Positions 9,471-46,661 of a DNA stretch of 64,000 nt are shown piece after piece (position 1 is the stretch's first letter; every line of letters begins with the position of its first letter). The stretch lies in contig NZ_OZ061318.1 in NCBI RefSeq assembly GCF_964063345.1, positions 3,534,001 to 3,598,000 on the forward strand, given 5' to 3'. Made by a program: the position numbers and the translations under genes. The notes beneath the pieces were generated by a model. That model saw only the letters and a program-made list of their open reading frames with translations, was not told where the DNA came from and made no database searches. This stretch comes from Pseudomonas lini. GTDB lineage: Bacteria > Pseudomonadota > Gammaproteobacteria > Pseudomonadales > Pseudomonadaceae.

Positions 9471-9607
9471 CTTCGCTCCAGGGCGCGGGCAAGGTTTGCG
9501 ATTCTACCGCCTGCGCGGGGTTGGGTCATTGGTCGGCTGGAGACCGGGCTGCGCCAGGCTGGTCTAGTCTTTGGCGTCTGGACCCTAAACCCCAAGGAGA
9601 GTGCACC

Positions 9608-10048: not shown

Positions 10049-10069
10049 CCCTCAAGATCGTGTGATGGC

Positions 10070-10162
10070 CATCGCGGGCAAGCCACGCTCCCACAGGTTT
10101 TGTGTCGTTCGCGTAGTGTGCATACGACGCAAAACCTGTGGGAGCGAGGCTTGCCCGCGATG
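10070..10162. repeat. REP pair (CGCGGGCAAGC..GCTCCCACAGG family)
   Basis: Inverted half-sites ATCGCGGGCAAGCCACGCTC and GAGCGAGGCTTGCCCGCGAT, with the inner arms CCACAGGTTTTG/CAAAACCTGTGG also complementary. It lies between the convergent LysM and yrfG genes. Confidence 0.88.
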
Positions 10163-10175
10163 CAGGCGACTCGGT

Positions 10176-10838: not shown

Positions 10839-11085
10839 AAAAAACTTCTCCAGCGGTAAAAAAGATATCCAAGGTAAACAATCAGGATAGGCCGGGTACA
10901 GGCTGGTTTGAAAGCGTCGCGAACGAAGGGAGTGCAAGGAAAAAACAGGCGAGGACGGGCTGGGGTCGCGTTCGACTTTACGAGTTGTAAATGACCCGTC
11001 CGAGCCTGTTTTTGACGCAGCAATCTCGAGCGCAGCAGCTTTCAAACAGCCTGTATAGTAACGCGTTCACGCCAAGGAGCCTCCC

Positions 11086-11652
11086 ATGCGCCAGAAACCC
11101 ACCGTACTCGCCCGCGAGATCGTCGCCACCAGCCGTTTGTTCTGTGTCGAAGAGCTGAAGTTGCGCTTTTCCAATGGCGTGGAGCGTACTTACGAGCGTC
11201 TGGTCAGCAAAGGCACCGGTCATGGTGCGGTGATGATCGTGGCGATGCTCGACGCGGATCACGCCGTATTGGTGGAGGAATACTGCGGCGGCACCGATGC
11301 CTACGAATTGTCCCTGCCCAAAGGCTTGATCGAGCCGGGCGAAGATGTGTTGGCAGCGGCCGAGCGGGAGCTCATGGAAGAGGCCGGGTATGGCGCGCGG
11401 CAGCTGGAACATCTGACCGAGTTGTCTTTGTCACCCGGCTACATGAGCCAGAGAATCCAGGTGGTGCTGGCCACCGATTTGTACGAAGAACGCCTGGAAG
11501 GTGATGAACCCGAGCCGATGGGGGTGGAAAAGATCAACCTGCGCGAATTGTCAGCCTTGGCGCAGAACCCGCGATTCACCGAGGGCCGTGCCTTGGCGGC
11601 GCTGTATCTGGCCCGTGATGTGCTGACTCAGCGTGGGGTGTTCCTGCCATGA
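11086..11652 (+). CDS. nudE: NudE, ADP-compound Nudix hydrolase
   Basis: 188 aa Nudix hydrolase that cleaves ADP-ribose, Ap3A and NADH-type nucleotides. The Nudix box is complete: GLIEPGEDVLAAAERELMEE followed by AG, about residues 84-106, with the REXXEE core as RELMEE. Preceded by AAGGAG. It overlaps the cysQ start by four bases (ATGA), so the two are translationally coupled. Divergent from yrfG. Confidence 0.93.
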   Translation: MRQKPTVLAREIVATSRLFCVEELKLRFSNGVERTYERLVSKGTGHGAVMIVAMLDADHAVLVEEYCGGTDAYELSLPKGLIEPGEDVLAAAERELMEEAGYGARQLEHLTELSLSPGYMSQRIQVVLATDLYEERLEGDEPEPMGVEKINLRELSALAQNPRFTEGRALAALYLARDVLTQRGVFLP

Positions 11653-12482
11653 AGTTGAATTTCCCCCATCCGTTGATGGCGCCAGTCGTTGAATTGGCTT
11701 TGAAGGCTGGCGAGGCGATTCTGCCGTTCTGGCGCGTCAACGTTGCCGTGACTGCAAAGTCCGATGATTCCCCGGTCACCGCCGCCGACATGGCCGCTCA
11801 TCATCTGATTCTGGCCGGGCTGACGGCGCTGGATCCGAGCATTCCGGTGCTGTCCGAAGAAGACGCCAATATCCCCCAGAGCGTGCGCGCTGGCTGGCAG
11901 CGCTGGTGGTTGGTCGATCCATTGGACGGGACCAAGGAGTTTATTTCCGGCAGCGAAGAGTTCACCGTCAACATTGCGTTGATCGAGCAAGGGCGTGTGG
12001 TGTTCGGTGTGGTGTCGATGCCGACCAACGGGCGCTTTTATGTAGGGGGCGCGGGGTTGGGTGCCTGGCGTGGCGATAAAGGCGCCGAGCCGTTGCCGAT
12101 TCAAGTTCGCGAGGTTCCGGCGGCGGGTGAAGCGTTCACGGTGGTTGCCAGTCGTCGGCATTCGAGCCCTGAGCAGGAGCGCTTGCTGGCGGGGTTGAGC
12201 GCCAGCCTGGGTGAGTTGCAACTGGCCAATATCGGCAGCTCGCTGAAGTTTTGCCTGCTGGCGGAAGGGGCGGCGGATTGTTATCCGCGGTTGGCGCCGA
12301 CTTCTCAGTGGGATACGGCGGCTGCGCAAGGTGTGTTGGAAGGTGCGGGTGGTGAAGTGTTGGATTTGAGCGGTGAGCCGTTCTGTTACCCGGCGCGGGA
12401 ATCGTTGTTGAATGAGTTCTTTTTGGCGTTGCCGGCTAAGGCTGTGTGGCGCGAGAAGTTACTGGTACTGGCCCGATCCTGA
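11649..12482 (+). CDS. cysQ: CysQ, 3'(2'),5'-bisphosphate nucleotidase
   Basis: 277 aa Mg2+-dependent phosphatase of the inositol monophosphatase fold that converts PAP to AMP in sulfate assimilation. Metal-binding signatures: PVTAADMAAHHLI, the EED of LSEEDAN, VDPLDGTKEFI and, toward the C-terminus, SQWDTAAAQGVLEGAGG. Downstream gene of the nudE-cysQ operon, starting inside the nudE stop (ATGA). Length is normal for the family. Confidence 0.93.
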   Translation: MKLNFPHPLMAPVVELALKAGEAILPFWRVNVAVTAKSDDSPVTAADMAAHHLILAGLTALDPSIPVLSEEDANIPQSVRAGWQRWWLVDPLDGTKEFISGSEEFTVNIALIEQGRVVFGVVSMPTNGRFYVGGAGLGAWRGDKGAEPLPIQVREVPAAGEAFTVVASRRHSSPEQERLLAGLSASLGELQLANIGSSLKFCLLAEGAADCYPRLAPTSQWDTAAAQGVLEGAGGEVLDLSGEPFCYPARESLLNEFFLALPAKAVWREKLLVLARS

Positions 12483-12496
12483 GTTTTACCCAAACT

Positions 12497-12630
12497 TGTG
12501 GCGAGGGAGCTTGCTCCCGCTGGGCTGCAAAGCGGCCCCAAAACCCAGACACCGCGCAGCATCAGTTAATCCAGGCTGCCTGATTTGCGACTGCTGCGCA
12601 GCCGAGCGGGAGCAAGCTCCCTCGCCACAG
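12497..12630. repeat. REP pair (GGCGAGGGAGCTTGCTCCCGC family)
   Basis: Second copy of the element seen at 5.16-5.29 kb, with the same outer arms GGCGAGGGAGCTTGCTCCCGC and GCGGGAGCAAGCTCCCTCGCC and a similar inner GCTGCGCAGC motif. It separates the convergent cysQ and thioesterase genes. Confidence 0.88.
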
Positions 12631-12641
12631 GTTTTGTGTCC

Positions 12642-13097
12642 TTACCGGTGAAGAACGTACTGCCCGGTAAACTTCACCGCATCCTCTTCACTCCCGGTAT
12701 TCACGATCCGCGAATGCAGCGTCAACCGCGCCCGCCCATACCGCTCATACATCGCCAGAAACTTCTTCCACACGGCTGCACTCGGTGCCTGGCAAATCGC
12801 CGTCGCGTCCATGGTGACCGGTAGCGGATAGCTGATCTGCCCTTCCTGAATCACGATGTGCCCGTCTTCAATGCCTTCTTCGTGCAAACGCAAATGCAAC
12901 CAGCCCCAGCCGGCCAGCACCGCGCCGCAATACAGGCTGCCACCGAACATGGTGCTCTTGTGATTGACGTTGGCCTCCAGTGGCAAGTGCAGGCGCAGTT
13001 GCTGATCGTGCCAGTCGAGCACTTTGAGGCCCATGTCCCGTGTGAGGGGGATGTCGGAATGAAGGATCGATTCCAAGTGACGACTGTCGCGGTTCAT
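12642..13097 (-). CDS. YiiD-C-type thioesterase
   Basis: 151 aa hot-dog protein resembling the putative thioesterase domain at the C-terminus of E. coli YiiD: LHLPLEANVNHKSTMFGGSL followed by LAGWGWLHLRLHEEG. The substrate is unknown. It lies downstream of and in the same direction as dctD, but 40 bp separates them, so co-transcription is only possible. Confidence 0.82.
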   Translation of the reverse strand: MNRDSRHLESILHSDIPLTRDMGLKVLDWHDQQLRLHLPLEANVNHKSTMFGGSLYCGAVLAGWGWLHLRLHEEGIEDGHIVIQEGQISYPLPVTMDATAICQAPSAAVWKKFLAMYERYGRARLTLHSRIVNTGSEEDAVKFTGQYVLHR

Positions 13098-13137
13098 GCA
13101 CGGGCCTTTTGTTTGAAGGGGATGATTTTACGGTAGC

Positions 13138-14532
13138 TCAATCGAGGTCGTCGGTGGGGCTGCTGGTGCCGGCGTCAGCGAAGTTCAGGCCATGCTTGCG
13201 CAGTTTGTCGTGCAAGGTTTTGCGCGGAATGCCGAGCGCTTCGGCAAGGCTGCGTACGGAGCTGTGCGAGCGTGCCAGTTCGGCGGCAATCAGGCTCTTC
13301 TCGAAGTTCTCCACTTGCTCGCTCAAACCGCCGCTGACCACTTCAATCGTGCTGCCGACGCCGCCATCAGGCGCACTGTTGTCCAGCGCCAGTTCAAGGC
13401 CCAGGGCAAAGCGTTCGGCGGCGTTCTGCAGTTCTCGCACGTTGCCTGGCCAAGTATGGCGCAACAGCAGCGCCCGGTGTCCCGGTTGCAATTCGTGGGG
13501 CGGCAAGCCGTGGCGGGCGCTGGCTTCGTCGGCGAAATGCTGGAACAGCATCAGCGCATCTTCGCCCCGCTCGCGCAGCGGTGGAATGCGCAGCGGCGCG
13601 ACGTTCAGGCGGTAATACAAGTCGGCACGGAAGCGGCCCTGGTCGGCGGATTGACGCAGGTCTTCCTTGGTCGCGGCGATGATGCGGATGTCCAGCGGGA
13701 TCAGCTGGTTGCCACCCAAGCGCTCGACGACCCGCTCTTGCAGCAAGCGCAGCAATTTCACCTGCACATCCAGGCTCATGCTTTCGATTTCATCAAGGAA
13801 CAACGTGCCGCCGTTGGCGAATTCGAACTTGCCGATGCGGCGCTTCTGCGCGCCGGTAAACGCACCGGGCTCGTGACCGAACAGCTCGCTTTCCACCACC
13901 GACTCAGCCAGGGCCCCGGCGTTGATCGCCACGAACGGGCCGTTACGCCGGCTCGACAAGTCATGCAGCGCGCGAGCCACCACTTCCTTGCCCGCACCGG
14001 TTTCGCCGAGGATCAGCACGTCGGCCTTGGTCGCCGCCAAGGCACCGATCTGTTCGCGCAGGCGCAGCATCGGCGCTGATTGCCCGACCAGTCGAGCACT
14101 CAGTTCGTTGCGATCGCTCAGGGCCAGGCGCAGGCTGCGGTTGTCCAGCACCAGCCGGCGCAGGTCCAGGGCACGACGTACGCTGTCGAGCAGGGAGTCG
14201 CTGGCGAAAGGTTTTTCCAGAAAGTCATAGGCCCCGGCGCGCATGGCTTGTACGGCTAGCGGCACATCGCCGTGGCCGGTGATCAGCAGCACCGGCAACT
14301 CCGGGTCCTGGGCGTGGAGCTCGGTCAGCAGTTCGAGACCGTCCATGCCCGGCATGCGGATGTCGCTGACCACCACGCCCGGCCAGTCGCGCTCCAGTTG
14401 CCCGGCCAGACCTTTCGCTTCAGCGAGCGGCAGGATCTTCAGGCCGGCCAGGTCCAGGGTCTGGCTCAGGGCCTGGCGCAGGTGGGGATCGTCGTCGATC
14501 AACACGACCTGGATGCGGTTGTCGATGGTCAT
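13138..14532 (-). CDS. dctD: DctD, sigma-54-dependent response regulator
   Basis: 464 aa NtrC-class activator. An N-terminal receiver (residues 1-125, phospho-acceptor in VVSDIRMPGMDG) is followed by a sigma-54 AAA+ domain with Walker A GETGAGKE, the sigma-54 contact loop as GAFTGA, Walker B GGTLFLDEIE, and a Fis-type HTH at the C-terminus (RSLAEALGIPRKTLHDKLRK). It pairs with the sensor gene immediately upstream, overlapping its stop by ATGA. By homology and synteny it activates C4-dicarboxylate transport genes from sigma-54 promoters; those targets are not in the window. Confidence 0.92.
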   Translation of the reverse strand: MTIDNRIQVVLIDDDPHLRQALSQTLDLAGLKILPLAEAKGLAGQLERDWPGVVVSDIRMPGMDGLELLTELHAQDPELPVLLITGHGDVPLAVQAMRAGAYDFLEKPFASDSLLDSVRRALDLRRLVLDNRSLRLALSDRNELSARLVGQSAPMLRLREQIGALAATKADVLILGETGAGKEVVARALHDLSSRRNGPFVAINAGALAESVVESELFGHEPGAFTGAQKRRIGKFEFANGGTLFLDEIESMSLDVQVKLLRLLQERVVERLGGNQLIPLDIRIIAATKEDLRQSADQGRFRADLYYRLNVAPLRIPPLRERGEDALMLFQHFADEASARHGLPPHELQPGHRALLLRHTWPGNVRELQNAAERFALGLELALDNSAPDGGVGSTIEVVSGGLSEQVENFEKSLIAAELARSHSSVRSLAEALGIPRKTLHDKLRKHGLNFADAGTSSPTDDLD

Positions 14533-16343
14533 GCACTTCGGTCCTCGGACGGTTGCAGGCTCACGCCCGGTGCGCCTGCGCGCAGTTTCAGGGTAATCAA
14601 GGCGCCGCCTTCCTTGTGGTTGGAGAACGACAGTTCACCCCCGAAGGCGCGCATCAGGCTGTCGCAGATTGCCAGCCCCAGCCCAAGCCCCTGAGTGCGG
14701 GTCTTGGTGGTGTAAAAGGGCTCGCCGGCACGACCCAGCGCTTCCAGGCAGAACCCGGGGCCGTTGTCGCGAATGTACAGATTGACGCCGGCGGCGGTGG
14801 ACTCGGCACTCAACCAGAGTTTACGCGGCGGGCCTTTTTCCGTCAGGGCATCGAGGGCATTAGCCAGCAAATTGCCAAGTACCTGGCGCAGACGGGTTTC
14901 ACCGGCCTCGACCCACAGGGTGGCGGCCGGCAGGTCACGGATCAGTTCGACTTCCATGCTGCGCCGACGCTTGGCCAGTAATGCCAGGGCATCGTCCAGC
15001 GCCGGTTGCAGGGCCACGCTTTCCGGGGCGTGGCGATCACGCCGGGCGAAGGCTCGCAGGTGAGCGATGATCGAGGCCATGCGCCCGGTCAATTCGCTGA
15101 TCAGCTTGAGGTTGCCGCGAGCATCCTCGGTGCGCTGATGATCGAGCAGCACTTCGGCGTTTTCCGCGTAGCTGCGGATCGCCGCCAGCGGTTGATTGAG
15201 TTCATGGCTGATGCTTGCCGACATGGTTCCCAACGCCGAGAGCTTGCCGGCCTGCACCAGGTCATCCTGCGCGCGCACCAGTTCCTGCTGAGCGTGTTCG
15301 CGCTCCAGCACTTCCTGCTTCAGTCGACGGTTGAGGCCTTCGAGGTCGCTGGTCCGTTCGGCAACCCGGCCTTCCAGTTCCTGGCGGGCCTTGCCTTCGA
15401 AGGCAATCCGGTCCAGGTAATGGCGCCGGCGTTGCATCATCAGGCCGAGCAGCAGCATCAATACCAGCAGCGTTGCGCCACCAATCGCCACGACCGTACG
15501 CACTGGACGGTCGATCAAGGTACGCGGCGCAAGGATATTGACGCTCCAGCCGGTTTCTTCGATCTGCCGGGTTTGGGTCAGCCAGGCATTGGGGTCGAGG
15601 TTCAACGGCTTGGGATCGCGGGTCGGGTAGGGTTGAATCGCGGTGATGGCCTCGCGTTCTGCGTCGCTCAATGGACGGGTTGAACGGAAACGCCACTCGG
15701 GCCGCGATGTGAGGATAACCACGCCATTGTGGTCGGTGACCAACAGTTGTTCCGGGGTTTTACCCCAAAGGCTCTCGGTGTGGTCGAGATCGACCTTGAT
15801 TACCAGCACGCCGATGATTTTTTCGCGATCACGTATCGCTGCGGCGAAGAAGTAACCGCGTTTGGCCGAGGTAGTGCCCAGGCCGAAGAAGCGCCCCAGA
15901 CGCCCGGCCATGGCTTCACTGAAATAAGGACGGAAGGCGAAATTACGGCCGACGAAGCTGTCGTGTTTGTCCCAATTGGAAGCCGCCAGCGTCTTGCCGG
16001 TGGTGTCCATCAGGTACATGACTTCGGCGCCGGTCTGGGCGCTGATGTTTTTCAGCAGGCGATTGGCATTGCCTTGAACCACGCCCTCGTCGGGTGCGGA
16101 CAATGTCGCACGCAGTGCGGGCAACTCGCCGAGAATCTGCGGCAATACTTCATACCGGTGCAGGGTGCCCAAGAGGTTGGCGACGTAGAGGTCGAGGGTC
16201 TGACGGTTCTGCCCGGCCAGTTCGCTGCGGTAGTAACGCTCGGCCAAATGCTCCAGCGGCCACAGCAAGGGCGCCAGGCACAGCGCGAGCAGCGCCAGGC
16301 TGCGCCAGCGGGGTCTGCGGGGGAGGGTCGGTGTCATGAGCAT
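14529..16343 (-). CDS. dctB: DctB, C4-dicarboxylate sensor histidine kinase
   Basis: 604 aa membrane kinase. TM1 at about residues 14-30, a periplasmic double-PAS sensor of about 250 residues, and TM2 at about 285-305 (ATLLVLMLLLGLMM). A coiled-coil segment with Glu/Arg-rich heptads precedes the H-box SASISHELNQPLAAIRSYAE. The N-box NLLANALDAL and G-boxes DNGPGF and GLGLGLAI are intact. A second in-frame ATG at 16337 is an alternative start. The arrangement next to rmlC resembles the P. aeruginosa chromosome as I remember it. Confidence 0.92.
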   Translation of the reverse strand: MLMTPTLPRRPRWRSLALLALCLAPLLWPLEHLAERYYRSELAGQNRQTLDLYVANLLGTLHRYEVLPQILGELPALRATLSAPDEGVVQGNANRLLKNISAQTGAEVMYLMDTTGKTLAASNWDKHDSFVGRNFAFRPYFSEAMAGRLGRFFGLGTTSAKRGYFFAAAIRDREKIIGVLVIKVDLDHTESLWGKTPEQLLVTDHNGVVILTSRPEWRFRSTRPLSDAEREAITAIQPYPTRDPKPLNLDPNAWLTQTRQIEETGWSVNILAPRTLIDRPVRTVVAIGGATLLVLMLLLGLMMQRRRHYLDRIAFEGKARQELEGRVAERTSDLEGLNRRLKQEVLEREHAQQELVRAQDDLVQAGKLSALGTMSASISHELNQPLAAIRSYAENAEVLLDHQRTEDARGNLKLISELTGRMASIIAHLRAFARRDRHAPESVALQPALDDALALLAKRRRSMEVELIRDLPAATLWVEAGETRLRQVLGNLLANALDALTEKGPPRKLWLSAESTAAGVNLYIRDNGPGFCLEALGRAGEPFYTTKTRTQGLGLGLAICDSLMRAFGGELSFSNHKEGGALITLKLRAGAPGVSLQPSEDRSA

Positions 16344-16443
16344 CAGGCGCCTGTGGGTACAGACGCATTATGCCTAGGCTTGCGGGCGCAGTCTGCGCAC
16401 CTGGGATCAAGTGCGCGCTGGCGGTGAAGATTCACACAGCAAT

Positions 16444-16989
16444 TCAGGAAAAGACTTCGGCGTCCTTGAGGAACGCGGCGGACTGATCCTTGGCCGACAG
16501 TTTCGGTGCTTCGTCCAGCTGCCAGTCAATGCCCAGGTCGGGATCGTCCCAGCGAATGCTGCGCTCGGCCGACGGGGTGTAGTAGTCGGTGGTTTTATAG
16601 AGGAACTCGGCGAAATCACTCAGCACCACGAAACCATGGGCAAAACCTTCCGGTACCCAGAGTTGGCGATGGTTTTCGGCGGACAGGCGCACCGCCACCC
16701 ATTTGCCGAAATGTGGCGAGCTGCGGCGAATATCCACCGCCACGTCCAGCACTTCACCGACGGTGACGCGGACCAGTTTGCCCTGGGTGTTTTCCAGTTG
16801 GTAATGCAGGCCGCGCAGAACGCCTTTTTGCGAGCGGGAATGGTTGTCCTGAACGAACTGGGTGTTCAGGCCGGTTGCCTCTTCGAAAGCCTTGGCGTTG
16901 AAGCTCTCATAGAAGAAACCGCGCTCGTCACCAAATACCTTGGGTTCGATGATCAGAACACCGGGCAGGTCGGTGGTGACTACATTCAT
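16444..16989 (-). CDS. rmlC: RmlC, dTDP-4-dehydrorhamnose 3,5-epimerase
   Basis: 181 aa cupin epimerase acting in dTDP-L-rhamnose synthesis. The catalytic His lies in VLRGLHYQLENTQGKLVRV and the Tyr region in FLYKTTDYYTPSAERSIRWD. The start at 16989 has GGAGAAAC 5-6 nt upstream; an upstream in-frame ATG has no ribosome site. rmlB, rmlD and rmlA are not adjacent here: the upstream neighbours are a bacteriocin locus, so the rhamnose operon appears interrupted or scattered. Confidence 0.93.
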   Translation of the reverse strand: MNVVTTDLPGVLIIEPKVFGDERGFFYESFNAKAFEEATGLNTQFVQDNHSRSQKGVLRGLHYQLENTQGKLVRVTVGEVLDVAVDIRRSSPHFGKWVAVRLSAENHRQLWVPEGFAHGFVVLSDFAEFLYKTTDYYTPSAERSIRWDDPDLGIDWQLDEAPKLSAKDQSAAFLKDAEVFS

Positions 16990-37046: not shown

Positions 37047-37097
37047 TGCTTGCGACGCGTGAACGGGATTCGGATTTCACGTACGCCAGAAACAACA

Positions 37098-37123
37098 AAG
37101 CCCTCGCATTTCTGCGAGGGCTT
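37098..37123 (+). terminator. Rho-independent terminator
   Basis: AAGCCCTCGCA-TTTC-TGCGAGGGCTT stem-loop followed by CGTTTTG, 50 bp after the isomerase stop. Confidence 0.85.
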
Positions 37124-37614
37124 CGTTTTGTATGGTGCGGCACCAGACGAACGGTATGTCTCGGCGAGACTAGGTTTCTCGGGCGTCTGGAGTTCGCTGG
37201 AAAATTCGGCATACCCCAAATAGTAACTATAAATAAATCAGCTAGTTATGGCGCTCGGTGGAATCGAATTCGGGATTTTTTAGATGTGAGCACATTGTCG
37301 GTCTGTAAGTAATTCAGAGCCGCATACGAATGGTAAACCCCCCTGAATTTGAACGTTGTCAATCATCTCTTTCGTAGAGAATAGGCAGAAATCCGCCAAA
37401 AGCTGTCGTGGCGACAGGCAGCAGACGGCCAAAAGCGGTCTATTCAAAGTCACCATCACGCAACGAGTTTTTTTGCTAATCAAAGCTGCGCCATCAGGAA
37501 TTTGGTTTGCCACGAACGTTGATGCTTACGGGACTTCTAAGGAGCTTTGAAGCGTCGACTATTTAGGTCACTATGCTTTCAACAATGGAGCGCTAAGGGC
37601 AGCACAAGCTGAGC
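37124..37614. other. Gene-free stretch, probable left edge of the island
   Basis: About 490 bp with a clear drop in coding character. At 37133-37152 TGGTGC-GGCACCAG-A-CGAAC partly matches the 3' end of the tRNA-Thr gene at 46.5 kb. At 37252-37285 there is GGTGGAATCGAATTCGGGA, resembling a tRNA T-arm in reverse. At 37429-37442 GGCCAAAAGCGGTC resembles sequence flanking the MITE-like element at 42.66 kb. These are consistent with a decayed integration junction but do not prove it. Confidence 0.4.
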
Positions 37615-38523
37615 ATGATGGACGAGAACCCACCCGAAGACACCCCAGGCGTTGAGGCACCAACGACAAGCGCGGTCGCCGATATCGTGCAGAGGAAGCC
37701 TCGAGAGGCACTACTACCCGGTAACCGGGAAGTTATAGCTGATCTATATGTCAGCAGAAATGTCGAGAATGAGCCTAAAGACTATGCATTCAAGGTGTAT
37801 GTAAGGCTAAACGCTAAGAAGCAGACGCTACGGAAGGTATCATTCCAGCACAGCGTTTTCGACGCTTGCTATTTTAATAAATGTAACTTCGATTCATGCG
37901 ACTTCACGGGCTGCCGGTTTGTTGGCTGTAATTTTCATCAGTCCTCATTTTCCGGATGCAACTTTGAGTACGCGATCTTCGAGCGTTGTCAAATCGACGA
38001 CGACATCCTCGAATGCGAGGCGCCGCGTAAGGAAAACCTGAAAATGCGCTTTGCCAGGTCGCTTCGAATGAATTTCCAACAAATCGGCGATGCCAAAGCT
38101 GTAAATAGGGCAATTTCGCTGGAGCTGGAGGCTACAGCGAGCTATCTCAAAAAATCTTGGGCATCCAGGGAAACATATTATCGAGATAAGTATCCAGGCT
38201 GGAAGAAGGTGCCACAGCTCATCAAATGGCTTGAGTTTCGGTTGCTAGATGCAATTTGGGGTAATGGCGAAAATACACTTAAGCTGTTGCGGTCAATCGT
38301 AATGATTCATCTTCTAATAGCGTTCTATGATACTTATCAGTTCGGCAACCCCTGGGATCTGACAGCCTATCTAAAAAGCCTCGTGGCGTCTCCGGGAGTG
38401 TTCTTCGGGATAGCCACCCCGCACCCTTACCCGATCTGGTTCTCCTCAATTGTTGCTGCAACGCGCTTGGTTGGATTCGCCTTTCTCACAGCTATCCTCG
38501 TAAAACGGTTTGGACGGCGATGA
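37615..38523 (+). CDS. Pentapeptide-repeat membrane protein
   Basis: 302 aa. Residues about 72-126 form pentapeptide repeats (VSFQHSVFDACYFNKCNFDS, CDFTGCRFVGCNFHQSSFSG, CNFEYAIF) with the A/C-F-x-x-C pattern of a right-handed beta-helix. A charged helical region follows, then two C-terminal hydrophobic segments (IVMIHLLIAFYDTYQ and SIVAATRLVGFAFLTAILV) that should anchor it in the inner membrane. It overlaps the next gene by ATGA. First gene of the island cargo. Similar membrane pentapeptide proteins occur as possible effectors in defence or stress modules; no function is established here. Confidence 0.75.
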   Translation: MMDENPPEDTPGVEAPTTSAVADIVQRKPREALLPGNREVIADLYVSRNVENEPKDYAFKVYVRLNAKKQTLRKVSFQHSVFDACYFNKCNFDSCDFTGCRFVGCNFHQSSFSGCNFEYAIFERCQIDDDILECEAPRKENLKMRFARSLRMNFQQIGDAKAVNRAISLELEATASYLKKSWASRETYYRDKYPGWKKVPQLIKWLEFRLLDAIWGNGENTLKLLRSIVMIHLLIAFYDTYQFGNPWDLTAYLKSLVASPGVFFGIATPHPYPIWFSSIVAATRLVGFAFLTAILVKRFGRR

Positions 38524-39143
38524 ATATGCACATTTACGCTTTCGGCTCCATCTGCCGAGGCGAGATTGACCTGGGGTCGGATATCGACCTGCTGGCCTGC
38601 GTCGACGGATCAGCAAAGCAGATTGATCACGAAAAATATTCGGTGTATCGATATGAGCGAATTCAGGCTTTGTGGACAGAAGGTAATCCATTTGCCTGGC
38701 ACCTTCATTTAGAGTCGAGACTGCTTTTCTCTCCGGATGGTACAGATTTTCTGAGCGATCTCGGGAAGCCTGCCCGCTATATCGGTGGTGACGGAGACTG
38801 CGCCAAATTCCGAAAACTTTTCGACCGCTCTTACCAAGAACTGAGCCAGTCTTCGAACAGTGCGACCTTTCACCTCTCTTGCATTTTCTTAGCCATTCGA
38901 AATTTCGCTACCTGTCATTCGCTTTCGCTTGGGCACCCCATCTTTTCTAGAAAGTCTCCTCTGATGGTTCAGCCAAGCCTCGATATTGATCCTCAATCAT
39001 TCTCCATCTTGACACGTGCACGATTACTATCAACACGAGGATATGGAACAAACCTCTCGTATGAAGAAATTTTTACCGCGACCAAAGCAGTCGCTATTGT
39101 TCCACTCTGGATGGAAGCGCTACGGAGCACGCATTCGCCATGA
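38520..39143 (+). CDS. Minimal nucleotidyltransferase-domain protein
   Basis: 207 aa. The N-terminus carries the pol-beta-type NTase signature G-S-x9-S-D-x-D: YAFGSICRGEIDLGSDIDLL (residues 6-25). The C-terminal half is mostly helical. The signature resembles MNT proteins of MNT/HEPN modules, which transfer AMP to a partner. It is flanked by overlapping genes on both sides (ATGA at each end). The substrate is unknown; no partner with an RxxxxH HEPN motif is evident. Confidence 0.75.
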   Translation: MNMHIYAFGSICRGEIDLGSDIDLLACVDGSAKQIDHEKYSVYRYERIQALWTEGNPFAWHLHLESRLLFSPDGTDFLSDLGKPARYIGGDGDCAKFRKLFDRSYQELSQSSNSATFHLSCIFLAIRNFATCHSLSLGHPIFSRKSPLMVQPSLDIDPQSFSILTRARLLSTRGYGTNLSYEEIFTATKAVAIVPLWMEALRSTHSP

Positions 39144-39433
39144 CTGAATTCAACAACCGAATTGATGCCCAGCGTGTAATCCTTAACCATGTTAATAGCG
39201 TTTTTTGGAATGAGGAGCTTTATGGTCTTTCTCGTGGTGCAATCGACCGCTGGATTAGTGTCAACGGAATTGATCCCAAAGCCTATCTGCCACGTGCGAT
39301 CTGTGAGTCGGCCGATAAGCTTTTCTTCTTAGCCAACAAAAGCCAGGAGCAGGTTACAGATGAATATCGCCTTCTATCTGTAGAGGTTCTCGAGCTAACT
39401 CAGCGAATCGCTAAAATCGTTGAAGTCGCATGA
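39140..39433 (+). CDS. Small helical hypothetical protein (97 aa)
   Basis: 97 aa, predicted mainly alpha-helical, containing QRVILNHVNSVFWNEELYGL, YLPRAICESADKLFFLANKS and VLELTQRIAKIVEVA. No recognised domain. It starts inside the stop of the nucleotidyltransferase gene (ATGA), so it is likely its partner or an accessory protein. A 110-bp gap and a switch to more AT-rich sequence follow before the next gene. Confidence 0.6.
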   Translation: MTEFNNRIDAQRVILNHVNSVFWNEELYGLSRGAIDRWISVNGIDPKAYLPRAICESADKLFFLANKSQEQVTDEYRLLSVEVLELTQRIAKIVEVA

Positions 39434-39543: not shown

Positions 39544-40731
39544 ATGAAAATCATATGCAGCCAGCGCATTTTGCGACTTCCCAACAAAACCGAAATTCAT
39601 ATACCTTTTGGCTTGTCAAAATCTTACAAGTCCGCATTATCCTATTCCGATGCCGTTTTTACTTTGGATGCAGACAAGGTGGTATGCATTAAAGTTAATG
39701 AAGCACTAGTTCAGGTATATCCATACTACTGCAAAGCAATCAGCATTCCAGAACTCCCACCCCTCACATTTTCAATTGTAGTATCTGAAAAGGACAAGAA
39801 GGCGTGTTCTGCCCTAATATCACAAGTTCACTATCTATCCTCACCTAATAGGGGGATTTTTTTTGCTCTTAAGGAACGTGACGAAATTATCGCATGCTGT
39901 ATTCTCGATACTCTGAAATTTGGCAACCCCAAGGGCAGATACTATATTAATACGTCACTATGCGATGATTTAGATATAAGCTTTGAAAACTGGGGGAGCA
40001 CGCCTTACGAAACGCATAATACACTACAGAATCAGTTAAAATTGATTTGGGTTAGTCGAATAGCAAAAGCGCAAAAGTATAGCGGGTATCAAATTGGAAC
40101 CCATTTGATGCTGGAGACACTGAAAGCTATTCCAGCAGTGATACCCTTTCCAGTGCAGCATGTAGAAGTCATTCGAACATGTGGAATTCAAGAGTCACTG
40201 TCACGTGACTTTCTAGAGTACGCTGGCTTCACAAAGATCAAGCTTAGGAATCAGAGCACAGCACCTTATATTTCTAATGGCGATCTCTTCCCCAAACGTA
40301 AGCCCTGTGTAAAACTTTACTACTGGAATAAAATCACAAACACATCATGCGTCGAAAACGCACGCCTGTTCGTACCTCTATCACAAGACCCTTTTTTATG
40401 GTTTGCCGATAATAAAAAAACTTGGGAGTTGCGCCGTGCAAGGGGGCAATTCACAGAGCGCCATATATACTCAGGCAGGCCAGTAGAGCTGAGACTGGGC
40501 TATAACACAAACAAAAAACTTTGGGGTGTCATTAACAAAGTAATTACAGGAACCTCGATTGAATCCGTGCTTACAAAAATCGGCAACTTCCAAAGCGTTA
40601 TACCTACAGCTTCTTCTTTGGTGGACGCCACAGAGAAAGCGCACAGCATATTGAAAACTCCTAGTAATTCGTACATTGCATTTGAAGTCACAGCTTTATT
40701 TAACCCGGACGATCTGACATGTCACGTATAA
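39544..40731 (+). CDS. GNAT-ASCH fusion protein
   Basis: 395 aa, unusually AT-rich for the window. Residues about 75-230 look like a GNAT acetyltransferase: ALKERDEIIACCILDTLKFG and KAQKYSGYQIGTHLMLETLK as motif A, then DFLEYAGFTKIKL. Residues about 280-392 look like an ASCH domain: LFVPLSQDPFLWFADNKKTW then ELRRARGQF, RPVELRLGYNTNKKLWGVIN. Some ASCH proteins (E. coli YqfB) hydrolyse N4-acetylcytidine, so an acetyltransferase fused to ASCH may act on a nucleoside or RNA; this is inference. The start has AAGGA 8 nt upstream. It overlaps the next gene by 13 bp. Confidence 0.6.
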   Translation: MKIICSQRILRLPNKTEIHIPFGLSKSYKSALSYSDAVFTLDADKVVCIKVNEALVQVYPYYCKAISIPELPPLTFSIVVSEKDKKACSALISQVHYLSSPNRGIFFALKERDEIIACCILDTLKFGNPKGRYYINTSLCDDLDISFENWGSTPYETHNTLQNQLKLIWVSRIAKAQKYSGYQIGTHLMLETLKAIPAVIPFPVQHVEVIRTCGIQESLSRDFLEYAGFTKIKLRNQSTAPYISNGDLFPKRKPCVKLYYWNKITNTSCVENARLFVPLSQDPFLWFADNKKTWELRRARGQFTERHIYSGRPVELRLGYNTNKKLWGVINKVITGTSIESVLTKIGNFQSVIPTASSLVDATEKAHSILKTPSNSYIAFEVTALFNPDDLTCHV

Positions 40732-42137
40732 CAATCAATGGATTAATTGAACTCTCCGATGAATCAAGTAATACAATTGAGAGCATATTTCTGTCAATTC
40801 GACAAAACATCCTCGCTGGTAGTTTTGACAGCTACTCAAAAAAAATTATCGATCGTTTAAGCATTGACATTCAAAATACTTTAGATCCGCGACTTCTAGA
40901 AAATAAATTCACTCACATCAGAGGCAAAGAATATTTTTTTGAACTAAGCATTCCTTCACGCTACTTCCCCATTGACTCTGGCGGAGACACACACCTCGTT
41001 GACTCCATCGTGGGAGATATGTTCAGCCTATCAAATTCATCAATTAAGCGAATTTATATTAATGACGTTCAATGGCAAGAGCTTGAACATAGCTTAGTGC
41101 TAAAACGTACCCAGCCACGCTCCATTCGAAACAGGTTCGAATTAGATCACTTCACACCACTCCTAGGATTTTCAGTAAAACCCAGGCTTGGGTTATCTAA
41201 TGAAGACTTCAAAAATCAGTGCATAGACGCAGCTAGACTTGGTTTCAACATAATTGAACCTGATACAAGAAAAATGCTTCTAAATGAGCACGACCTCGAT
41301 TGGCATATCGACCTCGCTAGTCAGGTCGCAGAGTTCCACAAGCCGAGAGGCAATATTTCTTCATACTCTGTAAACCTGAGTAACTACTCAGGCAATCTGG
41401 AGCGGGCAATAGAGAAGTTGTCAAAGTCTGTATCCAATCATCCTATAACTGTAAAAATAGATGCCGGGCTTGACGCAATATCCAAAATAAAAAAAGTAAA
41501 AGAGGTTAACGCACAAATAATAATTACATCCTACCCACTAATCAAAAAAGCACTCTCCCAACGCATACCGGATGTTTTTTTTGATAAGTTCCTGTCCCAC
41601 TGTGGCATCGACATAATGTACCCTGGCGGCTTTGTTGCCCTACCGGGGAATAAGAGACATTACAATGCAACAGAGGACATAACACTGCTAGCAGAATCTA
41701 TAAATCGCTATACCAGTCACATTCATAAGTCACACTTCATACCCACCATATCCGGTGGTATATCCACGGGGCTTCTGCACTTATACTACGAGCTTTATGG
41801 GCCGAAAGTCAGCCTCTTTCTTGGCGGTGCAGTTGCGACGAACAAAAATGGAGTGGAAGCAGGTGCTGAACTTTGTATGAAAGTGCTAGACTACGCTATC
41901 GGGTGTAGAAAAAAACTAGCCGCACATAACCACAAATTGTCCAACAAAAAAAACAAAGCCATGTACAAAACCCTCATGGATCTCCCTCTTTTGGATGCCA
42001 GAACAGTCAAGCAAATAAAAGATGAAACTGACTCAGAATACATAATCCCTAGAGAGTTTATGACTACTAACAAGCTCAGTAATTTCACAGAAGCGAACTG
42101 GAACTACTGGACCGCAGATGATTTCGAGTTTATTTAG
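40719..42137 (+). CDS. Divergent RuBisCO-like protein
   Basis: 472 aa, AT-rich gene. The C-terminal TIM-barrel half aligns with RuBisCO large chains by landmark spacing. KPRLGLS (154-160) corresponds to the K175 motif. GFNIIEPDT (175-183) falls where G-x-D-F-x-K-D-D-E is expected, with Glu180 replacing carbamylated K201, Asp182 matching D203 and Thr183 replacing E204. PTISGGIST (S345-G-G) matches the S379 loop and LFLGGAVATNKNG (G369-G370) the G403/G404 loop. Distances 154-180 and 345-369 equal 175-201 and 379-403. It is therefore probably a non-carboxylating form IV-like protein acting on a phosphorylated sugar or related compound. Function unknown; it shares an operon with the GNAT-ASCH protein. 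Confidence 0.72.
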   Translation: MSRITINGLIELSDESSNTIESIFLSIRQNILAGSFDSYSKKIIDRLSIDIQNTLDPRLLENKFTHIRGKEYFFELSIPSRYFPIDSGGDTHLVDSIVGDMFSLSNSSIKRIYINDVQWQELEHSLVLKRTQPRSIRNRFELDHFTPLLGFSVKPRLGLSNEDFKNQCIDAARLGFNIIEPDTRKMLLNEHDLDWHIDLASQVAEFHKPRGNISSYSVNLSNYSGNLERAIEKLSKSVSNHPITVKIDAGLDAISKIKKVKEVNAQIIITSYPLIKKALSQRIPDVFFDKFLSHCGIDIMYPGGFVALPGNKRHYNATEDITLLAESINRYTSHIHKSHFIPTISGGISTGLLHLYYELYGPKVSLFLGGAVATNKNGVEAGAELCMKVLDYAIGCRKKLAAHNHKLSNKKNKAMYKTLMDLPLLDARTVKQIKDETDSEYIIPREFMTTNKLSNFTEANWNYWTADDFEFI

Positions 42138-42148
42138 AGGTCGCGTAT

Positions 42149-42607
42149 ATGCTTGAAGTAATCACCTCATACCTTAGCTTTATGTCTAATCAGCTTTCGG
42201 GCCTAGCAACGCCCCACCGAATCTGGTGCTTTTACGAACAGTTTGGTCTGCGCACTATTATAATGCTTGTGAACACCGGAATTATTGCTTTCGCCTTACC
42301 CAATATACTTGATCAGTCTGAATGTAAGCTCGATAGAGATTCTTACATCAAAACACTTTTTGAGAAAAAGCGTCGTTGGATGAAACGTAACAGCTGCGCG
42401 ATGCTGTTTTTTGCGACTGTCACAATCTTGACGTATTTAGCAATCTGGAACGCGGTTTCTAATCAAAATATTTGCAGCTCTGTCACGATAAGGTCTGATA
42501 GTCCTGAGAGGTTTTCGGGCTTTCTAGCTACCATGAATATCCTCACCATATTTATTGCTATATTTGCATTAAATCAAAAAATATTCTGCATGAAACACAA
42601 GCAATAG
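42149..42607 (+). CDS. Small membrane protein of the island cluster
   Basis: 152 aa with three hydrophobic segments (TIIMLVNTGIIAFALPNIL, AMLFFATVTILTYLAIW, LATMNILTIFIAIFAL) and a basic central loop (KKRRWMKR). It begins 11 bp after the RuBisCO-like gene with AGAGG upstream, so it is the last gene of that operon. No family recognised. It might anchor or export the product of the upstream enzymes, but this is speculation. Confidence 0.65.
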   Translation: MLEVITSYLSFMSNQLSGLATPHRIWCFYEQFGLRTIIMLVNTGIIAFALPNILDQSECKLDRDSYIKTLFEKKRRWMKRNSCAMLFFATVTILTYLAIWNAVSNQNICSSVTIRSDSPERFSGFLATMNILTIFIAIFALNQKIFCMKHKQ

Positions 42608-42857: not shown

Positions 42858-43133
42858 CTAGCGGTTGAACTGCCAGGGTTTTCCTAAGCGATGAGTGAGT
42901 AATTGCATGGTCAGCAAATAGTAATAGCGCGTCGATTCAGTGTGCTGGTTTAGGTGGTGATTCAAAAACCACGCAAGGTGTTTTCTCTGCCAAGTCCATG
43001 GATTTTCGCGTTGCCAGCGCTCAGCGATTGCTGTTTGGATAGCCTTCGCCTGACGCAAGTGGCGTTGACGCGTGGTATACGACCCGGTCAGGACGCTCAC
43101 CAGGAACAGATCCATATCGAATGCCGTGCTCAC
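42858..43133 (-). CDS. Small integrase-associated protein (91 aa)
   Basis: 91 aa basic, Trp/His-rich protein (TTRQRHLRQAKAIQTAIAER, WQRENPWTWQRKHLAWFLNH, STRYYYLLTMQLLTHRLGKP). Its start overlaps the stop of the upstream recombinase gene as ATGA, so it is co-translated with it. It may be an accessory DNA-binding or directionality factor; no motif proves this. Confidence 0.6.
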   Translation of the reverse strand: MSTAFDMDLFLVSVLTGSYTTRQRHLRQAKAIQTAIAERWQRENPWTWQRKHLAWFLNHHLNQHTESTRYYYLLTMQLLTHRLGKPWQFNR

Positions 43134-44110
43134 GCTCGACCACCAATGTAGGCGGCGGCCACGACGATACGGTTGTGCCCCAGCTCATAGCTGATTTGCA
43201 CTCGGGCCTCCTGATCGAGGCGTCGGTCGAGTTGGTGGCAATGGCCACCGTTGATAGGCGCGGGATGCTGGGTGATTTGCTCATAGCGTTCGCATGCAAA
43301 GGCAGCCCGTAGTTCATGAAAGCCTTTGAGGTTGTGTTTATGGAGGAGGTCTCGAATGGGACGGACGGTGCCCTGTATGAAATCCAGGTAGCTTTCGTGC
43401 GGGGCTAATAGGTTGCGGCTACCGTCGGGCGAGACCTGTTCGGCAAACCTCAGTGCGTCACGAATATGATCATTTACCGTAATCCAACGAGGTGCTGATG
43501 CGCCTGAACGGCCACCTTTGATGCCGTCCTGGATGTTGATCTTTCCGAATTGCTTGGCTTCACGTTTTAGACGGGGAAGGTCGGCCAAAATCGCCTCGCG
43601 CAAGCGCATACCGGTGGCTCGCGCTAACTGAGCGATGGCCGCGGCGCGCGGCTGCTGGTTTTCGCAAAGCACCTCTACGATCCGCTTCACCTGTTCGCGG
43701 TCCTGGCCTTGCGGCACTGAACGACGAACACCGGTGCGCCGCATTCCCAGTGCCTTACTCGGGCTCGGCACTTTCACATACTGATCACCGCGAAGCGCCG
43801 CCATGGTTCGGTTCAAGCTAGACAAACGGTTTTGCGCAGTCGCGATGGCAAGCCTGCCATGTTCAACTTGTTGGCGCAGATGTCCGGCATAGTCCAACAA
43901 GGTCTGCCGATCTATCTGTCGCGCATCGTTAAACCCCGGCCCATCCTCTGAACGACACCAGCGCACAAACGCCTGCCACCGATCACTGTGTGCTTTGACG
44001 GTCCCGTAATGCCCACCGCTAAACAGATCTTTCAATGCTTGCGGCCCGGCATAACTCAGTTGCCGACCATAGCCAAAATTTCGCCCATCGCGCCTACCTA
44101 CTAGCGCCAT
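43130..44110 (-). CDS. Tyrosine recombinase (integrase-domain protein)
   Basis: 326 aa phage-integrase fold. The N-terminal SAM-like core-binding domain spans about residues 25-110 (HSDRWQAFVRWCRSEDGPGF, LLDYAGHLRQQVEHGRLAIA). In the catalytic domain the first Arg is in ARATGMRLREAILADLPRLK, the H-x-x-R is replaced or approximated by FHELRAAFACERYEQ, and SYELGHNRIVVAAAYIGGRA holds the late His and Tyr. The ATG at 44110 has GAGAGGGG upstream. It belongs to the integrase-domain family often found on Pseudomonas islands. Confidence 0.8.
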   Translation of the reverse strand: MALVGRRDGRNFGYGRQLSYAGPQALKDLFSGGHYGTVKAHSDRWQAFVRWCRSEDGPGFNDARQIDRQTLLDYAGHLRQQVEHGRLAIATAQNRLSSLNRTMAALRGDQYVKVPSPSKALGMRRTGVRRSVPQGQDREQVKRIVEVLCENQQPRAAAIAQLARATGMRLREAILADLPRLKREAKQFGKINIQDGIKGGRSGASAPRWITVNDHIRDALRFAEQVSPDGSRNLLAPHESYLDFIQGTVRPIRDLLHKHNLKGFHELRAAFACERYEQITQHPAPINGGHCHQLDRRLDQEARVQISYELGHNRIVVAAAYIGGRA

Positions 44111-45014
44111 GATCAAACCCCTCTCGAAACCAAAACTTTTAAAACTTTCCCCACGTCATCCCGCCACGAATGTTGAGTGTTATCAGGGATCAAGGCCCCT
44201 GCGACCTGTGAGGGTTGTCCACTAACGCGGGACTGGCGGCTCTTTACGACCGGGAGCTTGGGCATCTCATGATCTGGCCTCCTGAGCACTTACGAGGAAG
44301 TGGGCGGGTGGAGGCTGCACTGGCTGACGAGACCAGCGCCGCGAGATCCTGAGTCGGGTGAAGGCAGCTATGCGATGACCGGGGCATGCCTGACTGTCAG
44401 TCAGGTGCAGTCCATTCCGTGGGCTGCGGCACCATCATCTGCATCGCTGTTGCTGGTGACTTCGGTATTTGTCACGCCGATTGTCACGAGGGGAAATGCC
44501 GCAAAGCCTTGTACGAGTTGGGCTGCAGCAGCGGTAGGAGCGCCCGTCTCTTTCCGGGAGAAAGAGACGGGCGCAGGTTGGCGCAAGGAAATGGCCAAGC
44601 GGATAGGTTGCTGCAAGGCAGCTATGAAAGGGGGAAGTTGCCGCAGTGGGCACACTGGTAAAAGTAGGCATCCATCACATCGCTGTGAGCGTGCGAGCCG
44701 CCGGACGCTAATCGCACTTTGGGAGAACCACCACGGTGTGGCGTAGCCTTAAAGGTTCTGGCTACCTGGGTTGCTGTCAAAGACAGCACTTGCCCGATCT
44801 TTTCTACGCCTGTGGATAATTTGGGTCAAGGCTCGAGTTTTCGGGAACTCTGCGGCTGTGGATGAAATTATCCACCGGTGGAAATCTATGGTTTTCCACA
44901 GACAATTTCCGTGGGCTTTAGATTTTTTAAATGAGGTCCATCCAAGCAGGGCGGCTTTGCAGCCCCGCTTGGATGGACCCGCGTGGAAGGGCGGACAACG
45001 GTGATCTCACAGGC
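44111..45014. other. Gene-free island stretch with long hairpin and DnaA boxes
   Basis: About 900 bp between the two recombinase genes. A perfect 15-bp inverted repeat (arms GCGCCCGTCTCTTTC and its complement, 5-nt loop) lies at 44540-44574. Four DnaA-box-like 9-mers (one perfect TGTGGATAA, three with one mismatch) lie within 44811-44900. An inverted pair ATCCAAGCAGGGC/GCTTGGAT at about 44940-44977 could be a terminator for the integrase transcript. Frames of up to 149 codons exist but lack plausible protein character. Confidence 0.5.
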
Positions 45015-46343
45015 TTACCCACGTTTGGATGCGCCACGGCTATTTTGTAGGGCCGTGATGTTGTCGCCGACTGGGTGAGCGAATTCGTGGGGTGTCACAT
45101 GCCCGTGGCGGTTGGCGTCGATGTAGTTGCTCCACCACGCCATGATCAGCCTGCGCTGCTCCAGAAATTCAGCTTTGTGGATATACGCGGCGCGCACGCG
45201 GTTGCGTTCCTTGTGGCTCATTTGTCTTTCGATGGCTGCGTCGGTCCATAACCCGGACTCCAGTAGGGCGCTACAGGCCATGGTCCTGAAGCCGTGGCCG
45301 CACACGTCCTTGCTGGTGTCATAGCCGACGTTGCGGAGCATGGTGTTCACCGTGTTCTCGGACATGGGCTTCCAGTACTTGTGGTCGCCCGGTAGCACCA
45401 ACTCTGAAAAGCGACTGAGGCTGCGCAGGCGCTCCAGTATTTCGATGACCTGCGGCGATAGCGGAACCATTTGAATGTCGCCGTTCATCTTGGTCCCACG
45501 TGTGGAGTTGCGTACCCCTTCAATCGGTGCGCGCGTGTCGGGGATTTCCCACATGGCACGTTGGAAATCGAACTCACTCCATCGTGCGAAGCGCAGTTCG
45601 CTGGAGCGGACGAATACGTGCAGCGTCAACAGGACGGCAAGGCGCGTCAGCTCGCGGCCGTTGTAGTTGTCGATACGGTGTAGCAGTTCGGGTAGGCGGT
45701 TGAGGGAAAGGGCCGGGCGATGGACTGTGCGCGGCGCGTGGATCGAGCCTGCCAGATCCAGCGCGGGATTCATGGTGATCTGCCGAGCCCTTTTGGCCCC
45801 GCGCATGATGGTGGATAAGTAGTTCTGTACCCTTAACGCCACATCCATAGTGCCGCGTTCCTTGATGCGCTGGGTGATCTCTAGCAGGTCGTGGGTATCG
45901 AGTTCGGCGATGGGCCGTTGGCCGATCAGCGGGAAGACGTGGGTACGCAGTCGGCTCATCACGGTTTTTGCGTGTCCTTCGGTCCAGCGACGGAACATGT
46001 CGGCGTGCCACTCCAGAGCAACGGTTTCGAAAAGCAGTGCCGCCCGCTGGGCTACGATCTTGGCCTTCTTCTTTTCTTCCATTGGGTCGAGGTTGTCGAG
46101 CAGCAACGCCTTGGCTTCGTCTCGCTTACGTCGTGCGACGGAAAGGGTAACGATGGGGTAATTGCCGATGATGAGCGTACCTTCCTTGCCGCTGGGCTTG
46201 GTGTACTTCAAGCGCCAGGTCTTCACGCCATTGGGTTTGACGAAAAGGTACATGCCGCCGCCGTCGAACAGTTTGTAGGCGCGTTCGCGGGTTTTGGCCG
46301 TGCGGCATTGCAGGTCGCTGAGAGGGATCGCTAGACGTGGCAT
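45015..46343 (-). CDS. P4-type site-specific integrase
   Basis: 442 aa tyrosine recombinase of the P4/DUF4102 group: N-terminal arm-binding domain (CRTAKTRERAYKLFDGGGMY, LFVKPNGVKTWRLKY), SAM-like middle domain and catalytic domain. Catalytic residues: first Arg in LHVFVRSSELRFARWSEFDF, H-x-x-R in CGHGFRTMACSALLESGLW, then MSHKERNRVRAAYIHKAEFL with the nucleophile Tyr. The start at 46343 (GGAGCG upstream) is preferred to the longer frame, which would run through the tRNA terminator. It begins 165 bp from the 3' end of tRNA-Thr, the usual place for an integrase whose attachment site is the tRNA. Confidence 0.92.
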   Translation of the reverse strand: MPRLAIPLSDLQCRTAKTRERAYKLFDGGGMYLFVKPNGVKTWRLKYTKPSGKEGTLIIGNYPIVTLSVARRKRDEAKALLLDNLDPMEEKKKAKIVAQRAALLFETVALEWHADMFRRWTEGHAKTVMSRLRTHVFPLIGQRPIAELDTHDLLEITQRIKERGTMDVALRVQNYLSTIMRGAKRARQITMNPALDLAGSIHAPRTVHRPALSLNRLPELLHRIDNYNGRELTRLAVLLTLHVFVRSSELRFARWSEFDFQRAMWEIPDTRAPIEGVRNSTRGTKMNGDIQMVPLSPQVIEILERLRSLSRFSELVLPGDHKYWKPMSENTVNTMLRNVGYDTSKDVCGHGFRTMACSALLESGLWTDAAIERQMSHKERNRVRAAYIHKAEFLEQRRLIMAWWSNYIDANRHGHVTPHEFAHPVGDNITALQNSRGASKRG

Positions 46344-46436
46344 AGGGGTACGCGCTCCTGACCGGAAAATCGCAGTACCCCTAACATACCCTCGGGGAAG
46401 GGGGATTTTGTTGGATCCCGACAGAGGGTCCTGGAA

Positions 46437-46466
46437 CGAAAAAACCCGCCAAAGGGCGGGTTTTCG
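46437..46466. terminator. Terminator downstream of tRNA-Thr
   Basis: AAAACCCGCC-AAA-GGGCGGGTTTT, strong symmetric hairpin between the tRNA-Thr 3' end and the integrase start; can terminate the tRNA transcript on the minus strand. Confidence 0.85.
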
Positions 46467-46507
46467 GGGCTTCCAGAGCATTCGGTGGAATGCAATGGAG
46501 CCTAATG

Positions 46508-46583
<76 letters not shown>

Positions 46584-46661
46584 GTGTTAGGGCGACGATT
46601 ATAGCGATTGGATTGGTTCTGTAAACCCCTGAATTCAGACTATTTTTACACAGGCTTTCGG

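Follow-up and report, generated by a model that had tools for sequence, protein, structure and literature searches.

A RuBisCO-like protein with altered active-site positions in a mobile four-part module, a candidate anti-phage system

The stretch of Pseudomonas lini DNA analyzed here (64,000 nucleotides of contig NZ_OZ061318.1, called the window below) encodes a RuBisCO-like protein (RLP) that, as judged by homology and predicted fold, is a new clade within the RuBisCO superfamily. Its gene belongs to a module of four parts, a GNAT acyltransferase, an ASCH-like domain, the RLP and a protein with three predicted transmembrane (TM) segments, which the window carries as three genes, the first two parts being fused ( Table 1 ). 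Because this module is conserved, resides on mobile elements and often lies near defence genes, our best reading, held with about as much belief as doubt, is that it is a candidate mobile anti-phage system or a similar system of conflict between elements. The more specific proposal, that the module is a mobile immune system for which a RuBisCO-fold enzyme with a wholly rebuilt active site was recruited together with a GNAT and an ASCH-like reader, and in which a phosphorylated metabolite serves to gate a small membrane effector, is more tentative. If it were true, this would be the first RuBisCO relative with an immune role, as far as the literature searched shows: among the papers listed, largely from outside subscription journals, none linked RuBisCO-like proteins to phage defence, and the main text of DefensePredictor (PMC13092281) mentions none of rubisco, ribulose, ASCH, GNAT or acetyltransferase. 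If the module, compact at about 3 kb, does act in defence, it would represent a new kind of immune system, one in which a fold of central metabolism enters immunity, and a new class of signal molecule would be indicated.

Table 1. Positions of the features discussed, in the window and in the other records that carry the module.
Record	Feature	Position	Strand	Remark
Window	RuBisCO-like protein (RLP), 472 aa	40719..42137	+	NCBIfam/profile match, predicted structure, alignment
Window	GNAT acyltransferase (model residues about 57-270) fused to ASCH-like domain (about 270-390)	39544..40731	+	
Window	Small membrane protein of 152 aa with three predicted TM segments	42149..42607	+	
Window	Pentapeptide-repeat protein, distantly HalA-like	37615..38523	+	24.4 bits vs cut-off 250; neighbour, outside core module
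Window	Nucleotidyltransferase, distantly HalB-like	38520..39143	+	39.8 bits vs cut-off 190; neighbour
Window	97-aa protein between Hailong-like pair and module	39140..39433	+	No family match
Window	Tyrosine recombinase (Integrase_1)	43130..44116	-	
Window	Tyrosine integrase beside tRNA-Thr	45015..46481	-	
Window	tRNA-Thr (TGT)	46508..46583	-	Putative island integration site
P. paraversuta, L002	Module	8784-10013, 10001-11419, 11431-11889		
Salinibacter ruber plasmid pSR67, L004	GNAT	13093-14124		
Salinibacter ruber plasmid pSR67, L004	ASCH-like + ASCH	14066-14788		
Salinibacter ruber plasmid pSR67, L004	RLP	14794-16203		
Salinibacter ruber plasmid pSR67, L004	TM protein	16207-16632		
Phage contig G786	GNAT	L021:15376-16173		
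Phage contig G786	ASCH-like	L021:16115-16543		
Phage contig G786	RLP	L021:16553-16909 + L007:1-948		
Phage contig G786	TM protein	L007:1094-1516		

The preliminary description had proposed a divergent RuBisCO-like protein from the spacing of its motifs, and on both of the points on which that claim was staked beforehand the outcome is favorable: the homology is significant (NCBIfam matches at 1.2e-10 and 1.8e-10; RLP profile against 2cwx, 1e-12) and structure prediction gives the two domains of the RuBisCO fold, an N-terminal domain plus an alpha/beta barrel. This combined support from HMMs and fold rules out a chance spacing of motifs. Structural alignments with the RuBisCO large chain give 13-18% identity, and the score with the Pfam RuBisCO_large model (27.3 bits, or 26.8 in the genome search) is below the curated gathering score of 30.1; many of the RLP relatives carry a precomputed PF00016 label. 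The form IV proteins MtnW (the DK-MTP-1P enolase), OiaX (its role taken from the NCBIfam name) and the R. palustris RLP are among the nearest known proteins, and the window protein falls far below the model cut-offs. It scores 29.8 bits against the 409 required by the MtnW equivalog NF007095, while the OiaX model (NCBIfam equivalog cut-off 700 bits) does not match it at E 1 and gives three of four relatives 17.7-23.2 bits. Neither the window RLP nor the four relatives reach any cut-off of the NCBIfam models for MtnW, OiaX or RuBisCO, which rules out membership of MtnW or OiaX.

The single-sequence search with the window RLP yielded 12 relatives, the four with a source name all being from Pseudomonas, and a profile that included the Salinibacter RLP yielded 172 among the 7994 candidates scored. 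Haladaptatus, Actinomadura, Bradyrhizobium, Rhizobium, Agrobacterium, Gemmatimonadota and Acidiferrales are represented among the matches listed (120 of the 172). The family alignment comprises 123 sequences: the window RLP, P0001-P0012, P0027 and 109 of the 119 from P0030-P0148, the ten left out each being shorter than 430 residues. With it we aligned a reference set of 17 RuBisCO/RLP sequences from alphaproteobacterial genomes. RuBisCO positions are cited in the spinach numbering; their correspondences to the RLP were computed by alignment.

At the active-site positions the family differs from RuBisCO forms I-III. The position of the carbamylated Lys201 is Lys in 15 of the references and Cys in the other two, and Glu in every family sequence (E180); the OiaX-like references and the best enolase-model references are among those that keep the Lys. 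The whole triad Lys201/Asp203/Glu204 reads Glu, Asp, Thr in the window RLP, the last position (183) being variable in the family (88 Thr, 31 Ala, 4 Ser). The remaining replacements are Asn123 (Asn in 14 of 17 references) by Asp, K177 (Lys in 7) by Arg, H327 (His in 8) by Tyr (Tyr301 in the window RLP), H294 (His in 15, a gap in two) by Tyr in 121 of the 123 (Tyr272 in the window RLP) and R295 (Arg in nine references, Pro in six) by Pro. At the K334 position, a Lys in 9 of the 17, Lys is not a common residue of the family and is missing from the window RLP. A new Lys, K246, lies on the fourth barrel strand of the predicted structure at a position where all 17 references have Met, Leu or Val. 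These residues rule out an ordinary RuBisCO.

Ten positions are invariant in all 123 family sequences (D100, R156, E180, D182, N219, K246, Y301, G347, G369 and G370), and K154, R184, D248 and T270 are each kept in 122; position 345 is Ala in 110. The statement in the preliminary description that the protein cannot be a carboxylase and retains its phosphate loops agrees with this alignment, the loops being represented by K154 and the three glycines. On established knowledge, the kept phosphate loops and the Lys175 equivalent would fit a phosphorylated substrate, and a protein that has neither the carbamate nor Glu204 nor the catalytic His pair is predicted not to carboxylate RuBP. Since the family forms one coherent clade, and the new residues at its active-site positions are strictly conserved, the RLP is probably a working enzyme. 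Most of the RuBisCO catalytic residues have been replaced, as would be expected of a decayed, non-catalytic relic that serves as a binding protein only, but relics do not show invariant new residues, and several of the replacing residues are invariant in all 123 sequences, including the Lys that the model places on the fourth barrel strand; we consequently reject the relic as scarcely credible. A clade that exchanged the carbamate-metal center for an invariant Glu, Asp and Lys would represent new chemistry on the RuBisCO fold.

In the maximum-likelihood phylogeny (16 rows of the RLP family and 21 of RuBisCO/RLP references from alphaproteobacteria, the latter including one protein twice and one fragment of 269 residues) the family forms one side of a branch with 100/100 support against all 21 reference rows. 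This branch is the longest inner one of the tree: with the root at the midpoint, its part leading to the family measures 2.55 changes per site. No named member of the DeepYkr or Photo clades is among the rows. When ten of the reference rows were scanned with NCBIfam, two passed the RuBisCO large-chain model, one PRK13475 and one OiaX, and six passed none.

The three genes of the module in the window are tightly packed, the GNAT-ASCH gene overlapping the RLP start by 13 bases and the TM gene starting 11 bases past the RLP stop, and their GC content is 0.40-0.41 compared with 0.57 for the window. A promoter scan was uninformative (5 sites versus 9.8 expected). The preliminary description had placed the RLP on an integrase-linked island beside a GNAT-ASCH fusion. 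The GNAT half of the fusion stands: the upstream protein has a GNAT fold and belongs to this family, and its phage relative passes two Pfam GNAT cut-offs. The ASCH half is plausible. Pfam ASCH does not match the window protein, and the resemblance in its C-terminal part is weak (one of eight aligned domains, at 0.0066); profile to profile, the ASCH-like domain and true ASCH have a probability of 1.2%, though it is the same stretch that aligns, and model confidence is low around residues 275-290. The relatives from Salinibacter and P0026 have an additional second domain that is clearly ASCH (PF04266, 8.2e-11 and 4.6e-10). Against PDB sequences, the GNAT-ASCH and ASCH-like profiles gave nothing significant. 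In the TM protein, a Kyte-Doolittle scan shows three hydrophobic segments. No PADLOC or PHROG model matches the RLP, the GNAT-ASCH or the TM protein of the window, and no NCBIfam defence model matches these three or the GNAT, ASCH and TM proteins of the relatives.

The preliminary description had missed that this operon, with its membrane-protein gene, recurs across phyla, and that relatives are located close to defence genes as well as on a plasmid and on a phage contig. The full module order is found in the window, in P. paraversuta, on the Salinibacter ruber plasmid pSR67 and on the phage contig G786; the RLPs of P. paraversuta and Salinibacter are 86% and about 34% identical, respectively, to that of the window. 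The order rests on these four full loci, two of them close kin, in a family of 172 relatives, and the neighborhoods in Bradyrhizobium, Rhizobium, Actinomadura and Haladaptatus lie outside the loci read. Six of the 12 RLP relatives from the single-sequence search have a longest contig equal in length to that of a GNAT-ASCH relative, and presumably lie on the same contig as the latter. A Piscirickettsia plasmid (L005) has only an RLP remnant and the TM gene, and no GNAT-ASCH match was found in its record; at 11857-12908 the C-terminal remnant of the RLP lies behind transposase genes and is followed by the open TM gene and an integrase gene. In the pSR67 gene table, the ASCH gene (14066-14788) is annotated with a late start that omits the first ASCH-like domain, and the TM gene (16207-16632) is absent.

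Relatives of the TM protein are encoded 3' of the RLP in P. paraversuta, pSR67, the Piscirickettsia plasmid and the phage (L007). The window protein scores 61.7 bits with that of Piscirickettsia and 18.0 with that of the phage, and the phage protein 29.0 bits with that of Salinibacter, none of 1000 shuffles scoring as high in any of the three comparisons. Compared directly, the window and Salinibacter proteins do not rise above the shuffle level (9.8 bits; 1/500 and 2/500 shuffles as high), so the link between these two is drawn through the intermediate phage protein.

The carriers of the module are mobile elements. The phage contig G786 has PHROG matches to terminase, head-tail adaptor, major head, tail and internal virion proteins, a RecT-like protein and an integrase, and we read it accordingly as a temperate phage, with the module behind the virion genes and ahead of the integrase. 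IMG/VR classes the contig as without end repeats; the RLP gene runs across its ends, which suggests a circular or permuted genome. A 2887-aa repetitive protein is encoded before the module (L021 4361-13024); by position and look it is tail-side, and it matched no family. A Mrr-type nuclease (PF04471, 3.3e-30; PDC-S02 and mREase_IV in PADLOC) is located 3' of the module in this phage. The module of P. paraversuta has Septu (PtuA, 6.6e-133; PtuB, 4.9e-73) and the PADLOC candidate pair PDC-M02A/B as its 3' neighbors. This region (12126-15920), with a DUF927 gene further on, is a dense defence island. On pSR67 the gene 3' of the TM gene resembles the N-terminus of a type I methyltransferase and PDC-S14, and upstream of the module there is a gene for a DUF2779 protein that weakly matches Cas4. 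Mobile elements also carry cargo unrelated to defence.

The presence of the module on a plasmid, on a phage contig and on an island with an integrase, and a last gene that encodes a small three-TM product, would also suit an addiction module of the toxin-antitoxin type. Such a module would mainly stabilize plasmids, islands and prophages; its toxin would be the TM protein, silenced by the enzymes. Nevertheless, simple addiction would hardly call for three enzymatic or binding parts, and Mrr and Septu are neighbors better suited to defence, so that we consider addiction very unlikely. It overlaps with the reading as a conflict system, the main difference being the trigger.

As a conflict system, the module could operate as follows. 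The RLP would bind a phosphorylated substrate derived from a sugar or nucleotide in the kept phosphate loops and convert it with E180, D182 and K246, which would take over from the carbamylated-lysine metal center; E180 and D182, perhaps with K246, would constitute either a metal site of a new kind or a center that works without metal, by acid-base or Schiff-base chemistry. The GNAT may add or exchange an acyl group on the same metabolite, or on nucleic acid, and the ASCH-like domain may recognize a nucleotide, a base or nucleic acid. The level of the product would control the TM protein, the putative effector, and an infection that disturbed this level would cause the TM protein to harm the cell, as in inhibitory-signal systems such as Panoptes. 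In Hailong an enzyme-made signal restrains a membrane effector. We infer that a signal restraining a membrane effector is the closest working analogy for the module; in Panoptes, according to PMC12657230, a constitutive signal does so. The likeness is by analogy only, a small membrane protein being the operon partner of an enzyme; in contrast to both systems, the module has no nucleotide cyclase or polymerase, and its TM protein has no PADLOC or NCBIfam family match.

A rival scheme is one of nucleic-acid modification, in which the GNAT would transfer a group to a base in the manner of phage Mu Mom, the RLP would use a sugar phosphate to make the donor or its precursor, and the modified base would be read by the ASCH-like domain; the outcome would be protection of the element or a mark on self DNA. 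Known ASCH proteins that act on modified bases include YqfB, an N4-acetylcytidine hydrolase of nucleoside catabolism (PMC6972931), and BapA, a 5hmC glycosylase of defence (PMC13160076); a clear ASCH is shared with these by the Salinibacter and P0026 relatives, whereas in the window protein the ASCH-like domain can only just be detected. Mom itself cannot be separated from other GNATs as a special relative: its Z score is within 1 of those of many ordinary protein acetyltransferases and hence shows the GNAT fold only, and the GNAT-ASCH profile has no sequence match to Mom at E 10. The window GNAT further differs from Mom and other GNATs in its fusion to an ASCH-like domain and in its operon with an RLP. 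As a conserved membrane protein would also be unexpected in such a pathway, we judge modification rather unlikely.

To our knowledge, RLPs whose role has been established act in sulphur or sugar-phosphate metabolism, where they carry out enolase, isomerase or decarboxylase steps on sugar phosphates. Such functions, and the breadth of the RLP family, would favor a small-molecule pathway, either an unusual sugar-phosphate salvage or a metabolite exported or sensed via the TM protein, as accessory metabolism on mobile elements. The roles given in PMC5893883 are DK-MTP-1P enolase and 1,3-isomerase. However, the part that the loci read have in common includes no kinase, dehydrogenase, phosphatase or transporter; what accompanies the RLP each time is the GNAT, the ASCH-like domain and a TM protein of 140-152 aa, and there are defence-gene neighbors in P. 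paraversuta, the phage contig and the window. A metabolic role is in our opinion decidedly unlikely.

The RLP family is rare in the sampled genomes. In surveys whose samples overlap in part, the RLP was found in two of 398 genomes of the genus (the P. lini genome itself and one with the coordinates of the P. paraversuta match), in one of 398 of the phylum and in one of 298 of its own family, the genome in the last two cases being its own. An alphaproteobacterial order (0/397) and a family in it (0/297) gave none, but neither sample included a genome known to bear the RLP, so these two zeros carry little weight. The genome-contig search found a single locus, that of P. paraversuta. Phage GenBank records contained no relative of either the window or the Salinibacter RLP, and scans of viral contigs with the RLPs returned only IMGVR_UViG_3300036647_000095, beyond which scans with the GNAT added nothing. 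The plasmid searches gave only the Salinibacter and Piscirickettsia records, apart from ordinary RuBisCOs.

With respect to the island in the window, no repeat of at least 13 bases from the tRNA-Thr region (46441-46640) occurs elsewhere in the window that could mark an att site, and the DNA of the left flank matches relatives in short patches only. The pentapeptide-repeat, nucleotidyltransferase and 97-aa genes (37615-39433) constitute a compact unit, distantly Hailong-like, whose first two genes fall far short of the Hailong cut-offs (HalA 250, HalB 190). It adjoins the module, a further point of likeness to Hailong, and proteins that are by eye near-identical precede the module in P. paraversuta. 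A radC RNA motif (Rfam RF01754, 76.2 bits) lies between the two integrase genes at 44668-44801 on the minus strand. Finally, a 60-base stretch at about 37086-37146 has copies of 90-95% identity in several genomes of the genus, one of which contains two, and is possibly a repeat or the end of the island.
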